Virus record (IMG/VR): IMGVR_UViG_3300021957_000425
Coordinates: 1 to 20,031 of that record
Direction: 5' to 3' (one strand)
From: a virus
Length of the DNA stretch: 20,031 bases
In this document: in pieces, positions 1-12,125 of the stretch
Layout of the letters: each line of letters begins with the position of its first letter
Numbering within the stretch: position 1 is the stretch's first letter
Notes under the pieces: model-generated
Databases searched by the model: none
Told to the model about the DNA's origin: nothing
Seen by the model: only the letters and a program-made list of their open reading frames with translations
Program-made: the position numbers and the translations under genes

Positions 1-2196
1 GAAGTAAACCTCCCAGAATGGTCTCAGCCATTATTTAGTGAAGATTATCGTTATTTTGCATTAAGAGGTGGTCGTGGTAGCTCGAAATCGAGAAGTATTG
101 CTTCCATACTGGTTTTAAGAGCATCCCAGAAACCATTAAGAATCCTTTGTACGAGAGAGGTGCAGAAATCTATTAAGGATTCGGTCAAGAGGTTGTTAGA
201 TGATGAAATTGATCGACTTGGTTATAGAGATTCGTTTTTTACCAGTACAGATTCTGAGATTAGGGGTAAGAATGGGAGTTTATTTATCTTTGCAGGGTTA
301 CAGCATAATATAGATAGTATCAAATCTATGGAAGGTATTGATATTTGTTGGTGTGAAGAAAGCCAGACTTTGAGTAAGAACTCGTTGAACACGTTAATTC
401 CTACTATTAGAAAGCCTGGTTCACAGATATATTTCAGTTGGAACCCTAAAGAAGCGACTGATCCTGTTGAAGATATGTTTATTATTGGTGATCCTCCTCC
501 ACGGACTTTTTCTTTAAAGGTCAATTGGCAAGATAATCCATGGTTCCCAGAAGTGCTAAAAGAGGAAATGGAGTATGATAAGAAACAGGATAGGGGGAAA
601 TATCTCCATGTCTGGGAAGGTGAATATTTAACTAGGAGTAATGCGAATGTATTTCAAAACTGGTATAAGGAAGACTTCGATACTCCTGCTGATGCTTTTT
701 TTAGGTTTGGTTGTGATTGGGGCTTTAGTGTCGATCCGACTGTTCTGGTTCGTTGCTACGTTATTGGTAGGAAGTTATATATTGATCAAGAAGCTTGGAA
801 AGTGGGGTGTGAGATAGATGACACTCCTGCTCTGTTTGCTACGGTTCCAGAATCGGAGAAATGGCCCATAATTGCTGACTCTGCATCACCCGAAAGGATT
901 AGCTATATGAGAAAACATGGTTATCCTAAGATGATGAAAGCTTTGAAAGGTGCTAGGTCTATTGAGGAAGGTCTGGAATTTATGAGGAGTTATGAGATCG
1001 TGGTTCATCCTAGATGTAAACATGTTATAGACGAATTGATGCATTATAAGTACAAGATTGATCCTCAGACAGATGCTATTACAAATGTATTGGAGGATAA
1101 GAATAATCACTGTATTGCGGAGGGTGAGTTAGTTCTGACAGATAGAGGGCAAATACCAATTGAGGATATTGATCCAGATGTTCACATGGTTCTGACCAGA
1201 GGAGGATGGCAGAAAGTTGAAGTAAAAGCATTGATGGATTATAATAGGGATATTGTAGAAATAAGAACTAAAAGAGGAAATGTTGTTAGGTGCACACCAG
1301 ATCATCAAATATATACCGCAAGGGGTTGGTTGCAAGCTGATTCGTTAGAGTATAATGATGAGATACTTGAATTAGAGGAACATCAATGGTGCGCACAGAG
1401 GAAACAGAGTTTAACGGAAGAATATACAGAAGATACCCAGACTCAGAAAGAAGAAACGATAGAGTCTACTTCCAGAGGTCTTACACTGGGGGAACAACTA
1501 CTTTGCACAGAGAGAAATGGATGCATTTCAATGGAGAAATCCCTAAAGGCTATCAAATACACCATATTGATGAAAATCCACTCAATAACGAAATTGAAAA
1601 TCTTGAGTGCTTATCTGTTTCTGAACATGTTAGAAAGCATTGGACTCCAGAGCGACAAGAAAACCAAGTTAAACATTTGGACAAAATTAGGCATCTCACA
1701 AAAGCTTGGCATGCTTCACCAGAAGGTCACGAATGGCATGTGCAAAATGGAGCGAAATCATACCAGAACTTTGTACCAACTGAAAAAAAGTGCGAACAAT
1801 GCGAGAAAAACTTCTTGCCAAAAGCAATTGGAAACAGAGATAGGTTCTGCTCAAACAAATGTAAATCAAAGTGGAGAAGGATTTCTGGAGTCGATAACAT
1901 TGAAAAGAAATGCCCAGTATGTGAAAACAATTTTACCAGAAATAAATATGAAAAAGTTAAAACTTGTTCAAGGTCATGTGCTAACCGTTACAGATGTAGG
2001 AAAAAGCAAGAAGGTCTATGACCTAACTGTTGCAAATCACCATGAGTTTGTATGTGGACTCATGTTAGTATCGAATTGTATCGACTCATTACGCTACGGA
2101 TTAGAAGCTATACGCAGAACGGTTAAGGCTAGAGAGAATCCTGCTAATGAAATGGTTGTGGAGTCTAGGACTAATTATTGGAATAAAGGTCGATAA
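1..2196 (+). CDS. Phage terminase large subunit, 5'-partial, interrupted by an intein
   Basis: This is the ATPase-nuclease motor that packages DNA into the prohead. Reading frame 1 is open from the first base, so the true start lies upstream of the window; the ATG at 160 falls after Walker A and is not the start. Walker A (GGRGSSKS) lies at nt 67-90, and Walker B (GIDICWCEE) at about 334-360, followed by an SWNP coupling-type motif near 436-447. The RNase H-like nuclease domain shows its acidic residues at D (715-717, in CDWGF), D (877-879, in IADSAS) and D (2083-2085, in CIDSLRY). The last is separated from the rest by a 966-nt intein (1111-2076). Removing the intein restores the join NNH-CIDSLRYGLE, the usual terminase C-terminal motif, and gives a product of about 409 visible residues, near the normal family length. 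The portal gene follows after 36 nt. Family assignment is confident; relation to P22 gp2 or to PBSX-type terminases was not resolved. Confidence 0.95.
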   Translation, partial: EVNLPEWSQPLFSEDYRYFALRGGRGSSKSRSIASILVLRASQKPLRILCTREVQKSIKDSVKRLLDDEIDRLGYRDSFFTSTDSEIRGKNGSLFIFAGLQHNIDSIKSMEGIDICWCEESQTLSKNSLNTLIPTIRKPGSQIYFSWNPKEATDPVEDMFIIGDPPPRTFSLKVNWQDNPWFPEVLKEEMEYDKKQDRGKYLHVWEGEYLTRSNANVFQNWYKEDFDTPADAFFRFGCDWGFSVDPTVLVRCYVIGRKLYIDQEAWKVGCEIDDTPALFATVPESEKWPIIADSASPERISYMRKHGYPKMMKALKGARSIEEGLEFMRSYEIVVHPRCKHVIDELMHYKYKIDPQTDAITNVLEDKNNHCIAEGELVLTDRGQIPIEDIDPDVHMVLTRGGWQKVEVKALMDYNRDIVEIRTKRGNVVRCTPDHQIYTARGWLQADSLEYNDEILELEEHQWCAQRKQSLTEEYTEDTQTQKEETIESTSRGLTLGEQLLCTERNGCISMEKSLKAIKYTILMKIHSITKLKILSAYLFLNMLESIGLQSDKKTKLNIWTKLGISQKLGMLHQKVTNGMCKMERNHTRTLYQLKKSANNARKTSCQKQLETEIGSAQTNVNQSGEGFLESITLKRNAQYVKTILPEINMKKLKLVQGHVLTVTDVGKSKKVYDLTVANHHEFVCGLMLVSNCIDSLRYGLEAIRRTVKARENPANEMVVESRTNYWNKGR
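1217..1356 (+). promoter_or_regulatory. Possible sigma70-like promoters upstream of the nested HNH gene
   Basis: Two perfect TATAAT hexamers lie inside the N-terminal intein coding region. One is at 1240-1245 with TTGAAG 17 nt upstream (1217-1222). The other is at 1351-1356 with TTGCAA 15 nt upstream (1330-1335). The second would start RNA near 1363, leaving a short leader that contains the HNH ribosome binding site. In DNA this A+T-rich such hexamers also occur by chance, and the -35 matches are only partial, so this is a weak call. Confidence 0.22.
1374..1380 (+). promoter_or_regulatory. Shine-Dalgarno of the nested HNH gene
   Basis: AGAGGAA sits 5 nt upstream of the ATG at 1386, a normal bacterial spacing. 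It lies in the middle of the intein coding frame, where no initiation signal is needed for the terminase. Frame 3 has a TGA stop at 1368-1370 just upstream, so this site decides the HNH start and argues for independent translation. Confidence 0.75.
1386..2021 (+). CDS. HNH homing endonuclease nested out of frame in the intein
   Basis: A 211-residue HNH nuclease, expected to cut intein-less terminase alleles and so drive homing of the intein. The N-terminal strand region (EFNGRIYRRYPDSERRNDRVYF, residues 8-29) and the HNH core are typical of phage HNH enzymes: H41-R42 and W45, then H59-H60, D62, N67-N68, N72-L73 and H81. Two zinc-finger-like modules follow, C136-C139/C155-C159 and C176-C179/C194-C198, probably for DNA binding. 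It uses frame 3 whereas the intein uses frame 1. It has its own ATG with a good Shine-Dalgarno and ends with TGA inside the codons for the block F residues Tyr-Asp. The last zinc module therefore overlaps conserved intein sequence in the other frame. Bases here look richer in A and C and poorer in T than the flanks, suggesting a separate origin. The enzyme class is clear; the target site is inferred from location. Confidence 0.93.
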   Translation: MVRTEETEFNGRIYRRYPDSERRNDRVYFQRSYTGGTTTLHREKWMHFNGEIPKGYQIHHIDENPLNNEIENLECLSVSEHVRKHWTPERQENQVKHLDKIRHLTKAWHASPEGHEWHVQNGAKSYQNFVPTEKKCEQCEKNFLPKAIGNRDRFCSNKCKSKWRRISGVDNIEKKCPVCENNFTRNKYEKVKTCSRSCANRYRCRKKQEGL

Positions 2197-6661: not shown

Positions 6662-7417
6662 ATGCATATTCTATATGTATTAAAATTCTCGTCTGGCAAG
6701 AATTATGTTGGACAAACAACAAGAGATATGAAAACCAGATTTCTGCAACACAAAAATTCATCACTAAATGGCAACTCAAAACTGGCTGTTCATTGTGCGT
6801 GGAGAAAACATGGTGAGCCAGATGTGGACATAATTGATGATAGTTTTGAGTCATCTGAGGATTTGCATAATGCAGAGAAGTATTTAATATCTAGTCTAAA
6901 TACAATTGTCCCAAATGGGTATAATTTAGGGTATGGTGGGGAGACTGCTCCATCTAAAAACCCAATGGTTGCAAAAAAGATATCTGAAAAGGCCATTGGT
7001 AGAAAAATAGATAACTCCGAAAGACGCTCTGAGATAGCAACTGAATTGTGGCAAAGTAAAGATTACAGGAATAAAATGTCTGAGTCTTTAAAGAAATCTT
7101 GGGATGATGAGAAGAGAGAAAAAGTAAGCATAAGAATGAAAGAGTTCTGGAAGAAAAGAAAAGAGTCTGGATGGAAAATGCCAGAAAAAACTAAAGAGAA
7201 AATTAGTAATAAAGAAATAAGTCAAGAAACTAAAGACAAAATGAGTGAGTCTGCTAAGAGAAGAGGTCAGAACAATAATTGCCCTCATGCAAGAAAGGTT
7301 AATTCTGATAAACTAAAGTCACTATGGGCTGATCCAGAAAAAAGAGCAGAGAGAGTAGAAGCTTTAAAAAAGTCTTGGGTAAGAAGGAAATTGTCAAACA
7401 ACGAGAGTGGAGTATAA
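6662..7417 (+). CDS. Free-standing GIY-YIG homing endonuclease
   Basis: A 251-residue nuclease of the Seg/I-TevI type that cuts DNA near its own location in related phages and is copied in by repair. The GIY-YIG domain covers residues 1-92: Y5-V-L, Y15-V-G-Q-T, R26, H30, E72 (metal ligand) and N88 in GYNLGYGG. The rest is a basic helical region with repeated units (SESLKKSW, TKEKISNK, TKDKMSES, KLKSLWADPEKR, EALKKSW) of the nuclease-associated modular type that binds DNA. The ATG at 6662 has a near-perfect AGGAGGT (6650-6656); an upstream ATG at 6625 opens a different frame. It sits between the coat gene and a small virion-operon gene, where P22 has no gene, so it is an insertion. Its last codons contain the -35 box of a promoter for the next gene. 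Confidence 0.9.
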   Translation: MHILYVLKFSSGKNYVGQTTRDMKTRFLQHKNSSLNGNSKLAVHCAWRKHGEPDVDIIDDSFESSEDLHNAEKYLISSLNTIVPNGYNLGYGGETAPSKNPMVAKKISEKAIGRKIDNSERRSEIATELWQSKDYRNKMSESLKKSWDDEKREKVSIRMKEFWKKRKESGWKMPEKTKEKISNKEISQETKDKMSESAKRRGQNNNCPHARKVNSDKLKSLWADPEKRAERVEALKKSWVRRKLSNNESGV

Positions 7418-11332: not shown

Positions 11333-11772
11333 TGGCCGATGCACTTAGAGTTAATAGAGATGAGTTATATCGTGTTTTTCAAAACCATGAAACGGTAATT
11401 CAGTTTGAGAATTTGTTCAGTACGGTTGATGAAACCAGTAGTGGGACAGATATTGATGAGGCTTTAATTGTAGGTGGTAATGCACTAGCAAAAGCTAATC
11501 TTGTATTTGCTTTATTGAAGGATTATTTAAAGGAAACCTTTGAGACTGTTAATGAGAATCTTAAATCTTATGCAAAAGCATTTAATTATACTGGTTCAAG
11601 ATTAGATAGTGTTGTTTACACGTTTGGTTCAAAAACCATAACGAAAACATTGTCTTATACTGGTTTGAAATTAAATACGGTTGTTCTGAGTGGAGATACA
11701 CCATCTGGAATAACATTAACAAAGACATTGACTTACTCTGGTTTGAATCTGACAGGAGTTGCATACACATGA
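11332..11772 (+). CDS. Hypothetical tail protein with YTG repeats (tail-needle position)
   Basis: 146 residues, directly after gp10, where P22 encodes the tail needle gp26. Residues 1-85 look helical (LAKANLVFALLKDYLKETF). The C-terminal half holds three copies of a short beta unit: FNYTGSRLDSVVYT, LSYTGLKLNTVVLS and LTYSGLNLTGVAYT. Similar Y-T-G repeats occur in phage proteins next to tail or fibre genes. It is shorter than gp26 (233) and lacks an obvious long trimeric coiled coil, so needle function is only suggested by position. TAATG coupling to gp10, ATGA coupling to the next gene. Confidence 0.65.
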   Translation: MADALRVNRDELYRVFQNHETVIQFENLFSTVDETSSGTDIDEALIVGGNALAKANLVFALLKDYLKETFETVNENLKSYAKAFNYTGSRLDSVVYTFGSKTITKTLSYTGLKLNTVVLSGDTPSGITLTKTLTYSGLNLTGVAYT

Positions 11773-12125
11773 AAAGTATTCTTGTAATAGAAGATTCTGA
11801 GCAATCTTTGAATTATATGGAAATGATTCTAAAGAAAGATGTTAAGATGAAGGTTGATACTGCTTCTACAGCAGAGGTCGCTTTGTATAAGCTTAAAGTC
11901 AATAAGTATGATTATATTTTGTGTGATATAGAATTGCCTAAGATGACAGGCCCAGAAATACTCCTAGAATCTGAAACTCATAATGCGAAGATTTATTTTT
12001 GTACTGCTCTAGATAATGTAGAAGAAAAAATAGCTGCTTGTAATAATGGTAGTTTGAATGTTGTTGGTTGGAAAAAGAAACCAGTTTTTAAGAAAGATTT
12101 GATGGAGATATTCAAGGATGGATAA
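11769..12125 (+). CDS. CheY-like response regulator receiver domain
   Basis: A 118-residue stand-alone receiver with every key residue of the family: acidic pair E8-D9 after the first strand (ILVIEDSE), phospho-acceptor D53 (YILCDIELPKMTG), switch Thr79 (IYFCTAL) and Lys104-Pro105 (WKKKPVF). The length is that of a single receiver fold, with no output domain. In bacteria such proteins accept phosphate from histidine kinases and act through partners, for example the flagellar motor. Here it lies within a virion gene operon, overlapping the gene before by ATGA and the membrane protein after it by eight bases. A role in host signalling, motility or assembly is inference. The fold assignment is firm. 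Confidence 0.9.
   Translation: MKSILVIEDSEQSLNYMEMILKKDVKMKVDTASTAEVALYKLKVNKYDYILCDIELPKMTGPEILLESETHNAKIYFCTALDNVEEKIAACNNGSLNVVGWKKKPVFKKDLMEIFKDG

Follow-up and report, generated by a model that had tools for sequence, protein, structure and literature searches.

Methylases of mycobacteriophages have been described to contain 'hidden' HNH insertions out of frame, the ShiLan domain and Pacc40 (PMC11855218). The authors found neither an intein nor an intron in the host frame, and ShiLan has no detectable splicing domains (PMC11855218). Canonical inteins carry an in-frame endonuclease between the splicing halves at a conserved HEN insertion site (PMC6801210). Here we analyse the virus record IMGVR_UViG_3300021957_000425 (positions 1-20,031), whose entire length of 20,031 bases is called the window in the following. 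Its gene for TerL is interrupted by an intein, and the intein in turn harbors a HNH gene in a different reading frame.

The ShiLan domain is the closest precedent for this locus. Both have an out-of-frame zinc-finger HNH in a stop-free insertion of a phage gene, and the ShiLan domain is apparently mobile. Unlike ShiLan, where the insertion lacks splicing domains, the host frame of the window is a complete HINT intein and its 3' end is dual-coding. Among 20 phage records matching the window HNH at E<=1e-5 there was no ShiLan-type record. With the PI-SceI and Mtu RecA inteins the locus shares the HINT domain and an endonuclease located between N- and C-terminal splicing halves. Yet, in contrast to the in-frame endonuclease of a canonical HEN-containing intein, the HNH gene lies in frame 3 and the intein in frame 1, so that the endonuclease would be made as a protein of its own. 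In fractured genes, reportedly described by Dassa et al. in 2009, the two halves of a split intein are said to flank a free-standing endonuclease gene. The window resembles them in having a separate endonuclease gene between intein halves, but these halves form one open frame through the HNH gene and are not split. Finally, the HNH fold is common to I-HmuI and the HNH endonucleases of group I introns, while the window has no intron and different flanking zinc modules. In the literature searched, where the 2009 work of Dassa et al. is known by citation only, we found no complete intein reported to carry its endonuclease out of frame. Thus this arrangement appears to be new, the in-frame, split and ShiLan forms being already known.

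Anatomy of the terminase locus

Frame 1 is open over positions 1-2196, the TerL gene being already under way at the start of the window, and the intein junction leaves the TerL reading frame unbroken. The features of the locus are listed in Table 1.

Table 1. Position and basis of the features in and around the TerL intein of the window
Feature	Position	Strand	Basis
TerL N-extein, Terminase_3 and Terminase_3C	1..1110	+	Pfam E 2.7e-39 and 3.6e-13
Intein, 322 aa, Cys1...Asn322, +1 Cys, between TerL NNH and CIDSLRY	1111..2076	+	Pfam Intein_splicing E 4.6e-13
Intein N-terminal HINT half, residues 1-98	1111..1404	+	AF2; N-domain HMM in 88/88 nested loci
Shine-Dalgarno-like AGAGGA, 6 nt before HNH ATG	1374..1379	+	sequence
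Nested out-of-frame HNH_3 endonuclease gene, 211 aa	1386..2021	+	Pfam HNH_3 E 1.2e-15; PHROG_15471 E 1.4e-37
Intein linker, residues 99 to about 284, frame 1 across HNH gene	1405..1962	+	AF2, resampling
Last HNH zinc module C176-x2-C179-x14-C194-x3-C198 and C-terminal helix 196-210	1911..2018	+	alignment, AF2
Intein C-domain first strand, residues 285-307, leading into block F	1963..2031	+	AF2 strand E285-307
Doubly constrained core, HNH S197(part)-C198-A-N-R201-Y-R203 / intein H-V-L-T-V-T	1975..1998	+	both-direction resampling, n=23
Intein block F V-Y-D (GTC TAT GAC)	2014..2022	+	sequence
TerL C-extein, CIDSLRY..., nuclease motif	2077..2196	+	continuous with TerL of intein-free relative L029

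The window intein carries all of the splicing motifs, namely C1, block B T62xxH65, VYD in block F, N322 and the +1 Cys; C1, H65, V302 and N322 were invariant in an alignment of 51 inteins. The AF2 model showed a confident HINT fold at residues 1 to about 98 and about 283-322, with a pLDDT of 94-98 at residues 1-90 and mostly 97 in the C-domain's first long strand (residues 285-307). It superposed on the splicing domain of the Mtu RecA intein with a Z of 20.9 and an rmsd of 1.5 (VIA-align, 130 aligned). Segments with a pLDDT below 50 begin at residue 99 and the linker is mostly below 60; according to the model, the linker is probably disordered. PHROG_35162, a family of unknown function, matched residues 146-322 of the window intein, i.e. 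the frame-1 linker plus the C-intein, with an E of 8e-5. Therefore this family may contain such out-of-frame linkers.

The HNH protein has two zinc modules of the C-x2-C...C-x3-C type. It has an HNH motif and a predicted HNH fold, with H59, H60, N68, N72 and H81 invariant in 17 aligned sequences, and C176, C179, C194 and C198 of the last zinc module were invariant in 53 aligned HNHs. The AF2 model had a mean pLDDT of 97.1 and reached about 95-98 in the C-terminal helix 196-210. Because a fold search with the zinc modules yielded weak matches only (YacG 4tma, Z 2.9; FCS finger 2w0t, Z 2.3), we claim no family for them.

The HNH ORF ends with C194-S-R-S-C198-ANRYRCRKKQEGL*, the codons of C194 and C198 being at 1965-1967 and 1977-1979 and the TGA stop at 2019-2021. 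At 1975-2022 frame 1 reads HVLTVTDVGKSKKVYD, which lies inside the complete intein. AF2 predicts a helix (HNH residues 196-210) and a strand (intein residues 285-307) from the same seam. A preliminary description of this DNA had assigned the last zinc module and the tail of the HNH protein, from C194-S-R-S-C198 onward, to frame 3 and the strand running into block F to frame 1. The sequence bears out residues and coordinates of the former as well as the latter, for which AF2 also predicted the strand.

In the homologous loci the HNH start is mostly found 250-290 nt downstream of the intein Cys1 and is mostly ATG, rarely GTG or TTG. A Shine-Dalgarno match of 5 or more was present at 32 of 87 homologous HNH starts compared to 12% in shuffles, a modest signal, as about one third of the nested loci have no recognisable Shine-Dalgarno sequence. 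Clustered starts and Shine-Dalgarno enrichment favor an internal start of the HNH gene. On the other hand, the HNH frame of the window is open from 1371, shortly upstream of the ATG at 1386, and in most relatives it likewise opens just upstream of the start. A programmed -1 frameshift near 1371-1386 is therefore geometrically possible; it would join HNH and intein into a TerL-N-intein-HNH fusion that needs no internal start. Yet the sequence at 1371-1386 shows no slippery heptamer, and no frameshift signal was seen between the intein and HNH frames. Furthermore, the start codon hardly changes its position among the homologous loci and comes with Shine-Dalgarno enrichment, and the HNH family also occurs as a free-standing gene in relatives. 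We consider frameshifting quite improbable and work with an internal start.

Recurrence of the nested layout in phages

HNH homologues were gathered from IMG/VR, GTDB genomes and phage records and comprised 118 distinct loci, a scan of genome contigs giving four loci only. In more than 90 of the 118 the intein frame was stop-free through the matched HNH, and the relative frame was always identical. Nearly all of these loci had between 5 and 36 stops in the other shifted frame. Removal of near-copies left 88 non-redundant nested loci from phages and metagenomes, and an intein N-domain was detectable in each of them. A frameshift or assembly artefact was rejected because of the identical frame relation in 88 loci.

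The nested layout is common in phages and mostly overlooked by annotation. In Acinetobacter phage Highwayman (L268) and Tetrasphaera phage TJE1 (L270) TerL is the sole annotation at this place and the nested HNH is unannotated, i.e. the endonuclease gene was missed in at least two named phages. The nested HNH was found in inteins at several TerL sites. Nested inteins also occur in hosts other than TerL (L264, L258-L262), and that of L264 runs on into DNA methylase-like sequence.

The HNH proteins of these loci have one, two or three zinc modules, and the overlap is always on the last one. Proteins ending before residue 190, which the preliminary description had named as speaking against dual coding, do exist as single-module versions (L231, L233, L248, L251, L259, L261, L262 and L277). 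Because in these the last module overlaps the strand instead, the detail changes while the idea of dual coding is not refuted.

Constraint on the linker and on the seam

To test constraint on the intein frame, the HNH protein was held fixed and synonymous codons were resampled; for stops each HNH gene's own synonymous codons were shuffled. Over the HNH gene the intein frame of 75 nested loci contained no stop, while 197 were expected from synonymous shuffles. The HNH ORF of the window alone had none compared to a mean of 4.6 in shuffles, and not one of 400 shuffles reached zero. Free-standing and split HNHs contained 1-14 stops in this frame, close to expectation. A chance open frame was rejected on the basis of the shuffles and the free-standing controls. 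Because the wobble bases of the HNH codons are the second codon positions of the intein, synonymous choice in the HNH gene can keep the intein frame open.

Apart from this strict avoidance of stops the linker is near-neutral: at HNH residues 1-193 conservation of the intein frame was close to the null, with block mean z of -0.01 to 1.2. A few isolated upstream columns far from the splicing domain deviated, the intein frame being more conserved there than expected, among them HNH H60 (z 9.5, about position 1563) and S156 (z 6.5, about 1851).

Toward the 3' end the picture changed. With the HNH protein fixed, the intein-frame signal of the nested family rose at C198 (z 18), at residue 201 and at block F; at residue 201 the intein had Val in 41% versus 8%. 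The window belongs to a spacing class with 37 nt from C198 to block F, which comprises 23 divergent loci with a GC content of the HNH of 34-66%. In this class the intein side was constrained from nt -2 of C198 onward when the HNH was fixed. When the intein was fixed, the HNH side was constrained through R203 (+15), weaker at +21 and then mostly fading. True dual constraint in the spacing class of the window thus covers about 1975-1998, i.e. 8 codons. Positions 1960-1974 showed clear constraint in the HNH frame only, and about 1999-2021 the constraint was essentially in the intein frame only. The dual constraint was strong in the 37-nt class, partial in the 34-nt class, where it comprised the first Val only, and near absent in the 31-nt class. 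A constraint over all 62 nt was rejected, the core being about 24 nt, and a family-wide constraint was not supported, with little seen in the 31-nt spacing class. The constraint can be measured from each side, and the free-standing relatives serve as controls.

The preliminary description had proposed a constraint in two frames over 1960-2021. This holds for about 1975-1998 and fails on either side, where one frame is under constraint essentially alone. Its view that both readings are conserved protein parts was upheld, and a short segment proved to be constrained independently in each frame. Its argument that the overlap amounts to more than an endonuclease in a neutral linker applies to about 8 of 211 codons; it does not apply to HNH residues 1-193, with their near-null intein frame and a linker predicted to be disordered.

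The codons at the seam show how this comes about. In the 37-nt class C198 was TGT in 23/23 loci and residue 201 was Arg-CGT in 21/23, and both codons give Val in the intein; TGC at C198 would put Ala there. C198 was TGT in 57 of 75 nested loci compared to about half at the other zinc cysteines (p 3e-6). Family-wide, Arg201 was CGT in 28/31, as opposed to 13% of all Arg codons (p 5e-23) and to 1/7 in free or split relatives. The Val wobble bases vary among loci, with GTT, GTG, GTC and GTA at +10; therefore the seam signal is at the protein level. The resampling null ignores phylogeny, yet divergence is extreme, with a median terminal branch of 1.1 changes per site, and shared codons by descent are therefore an unlikely cause of the codon signal. 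dN/dS-type tests were set aside because the sequences are saturated at this branch length.

If only the HNH were under selection, frame 1 would be accidental and the strand a by-product of zinc-finger codons, TGT always being read as Val in the other frame. Indeed, Cys codons of the HNH leave the intein frame no choice but Val or Ala, and over most of its length the overlap is near-neutral. Yet the codon choice at C198 and R201 far exceeds a Cys-codon by-product, and in most free-standing and split HNHs the number of intein-frame stops ranges from several to 14, which is what the absence of selection would give. With a full HINT fold predicted and the intein catalytic residues invariant, we deem selection on the HNH alone hardly credible and retain a seam that is under selection in both frames.

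The end of the HNH gene is also tied to the intein. In the window TAT-GA of block F supplies the HNH stop, and in many nested loci the HNH stop is at the block F register (8 nt). Of the block F codons for VY[DN], TAT-GAY reads TGA, and TAY-AAY after A can read TAA-type stops.

Candidate mechanism and other states of the HNH family

A TerL intein with its homing endonuclease as a nested out-of-frame gene, which has its own start and a dual-coded 3' seam, is to our mind a highly probable explanation of the locus. The anatomy, the conservation, the avoidance of stops and the dual constraint of 8 codons can be read from the sequence itself, while we infer splicing, separate HNH translation, nuclease activity and homing. 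The HNH gene lies in the -1 (equivalently +2) frame, at the site that an in-frame endonuclease domain usually takes up. Translation of TerL would yield one polypeptide consisting of the N-intein half, a disordered 'anti-frame' linker of roughly 190 aa and the C-intein half, from which the intein would excise itself and restore TerL. Initiation at the internal AUG at 1386 would separately yield the HNH protein, a putative nuclease that would cut intein-free terL and so lead to homing. At the 3' collision Cys198 TGT and Arg201 CGT would be required for the V-x-x-V of the intein strand, and the block F codons VY[DN] would provide the HNH stop. An intein could in this way carry an endonuclease without fusing it.

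The distribution of the element is patchy, with many close TerLs lacking it. The relative L029 has an empty site NNH|VIDSLRY in a TerL protein that is 84% identical, which suggests homing of the TerL intein. Around 2100, L029 has Val where the intein-bearing TerL has the +1 Cys.

The HNH family also exists outside of inteins. Free-standing HNHs adjoin terL in BP10, PAE1, SN1 and EauM-23, and relatives of this kind are located beside terL/terS in L269, L273, L274, L276 and L278. This would fit a HNH that is a terminase partner in DNA packaging, kept by the phage and not a homing enzyme, with the intein as a passive carrier. Yet the closest solved fold to the HNH is the homing enzyme I-HmuI (Z 7.7, rmsd 2.8, 76 aligned), to which a weak sequence match with 1u3e can be added (E 0.0013). 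In addition, the HNH is present at several TerL sites and, in L264 and L258-L262, outside of TerL, and it is missing from many close TerLs. A role as terminase partner thus is improbable, and a homing endonuclease remains the preferred reading.

Split loci represent a third state. In L014, L015, L020, L275 and BL3 the N-half is closed by a stop and the C-half opens within the HNH gene. The intein halves are separate ORFs in L010, L014, L015, L019-L021, L211 and L275, as in a fractured gene with a split intein, and these relatives look like HNH versions of fractured genes. In all of these and in L271 the order in the apparently split TerL is N-intein half, stop, HNH and C-intein half, the last being in the +1 frame of the HNH. 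The conserved HNH motif G-[IL]-D-D reads TAG ATG ATG in the +1 frame at L211:3437 and L271:2311 and so holds both a stop codon and a start from which the C-intein half can be read. In Lactobacillus phage CL2 (L275) the C-half with the last TerL piece is unannotated; in Brochothrix phage BL3 (L271) the C-half is annotated as 'gp3'.

In a weakly rooted HNH tree nested, split and free states clustered, and the order of events was not resolved. We lean, with moderate confidence, toward a widespread and so far unnamed class of phage mobile elements, in which intein and homing endonuclease overlap in different frames and are locked by a dual-coded 3' seam. If so, the seam would be hard to change without damage to both proteins, the free-standing, split and nested states may follow one another along a single evolutionary path, and the frame-1 linker, neutral for the most part, may be a naturally overprinted protein. 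The locus is a clear case of natural overprinting, in which a zinc-finger helix and a beta strand of the intein, from unrelated folds, share codons. It also offers a direct handle on the interconversion of endonuclease-bearing, split and nested inteins.

Beyond the terminase gene the window contains a P22-like module with portal, coat and tail accessory proteins. A response regulator receiver domain (11769-12122, Pfam E 9e-16) is located inside the phage structural region, and after the coat protein a second homing-type gene is found at 6662-7414 (PHROG homing endonuclease, E 8.5e-21, with a weak NUMOD3).
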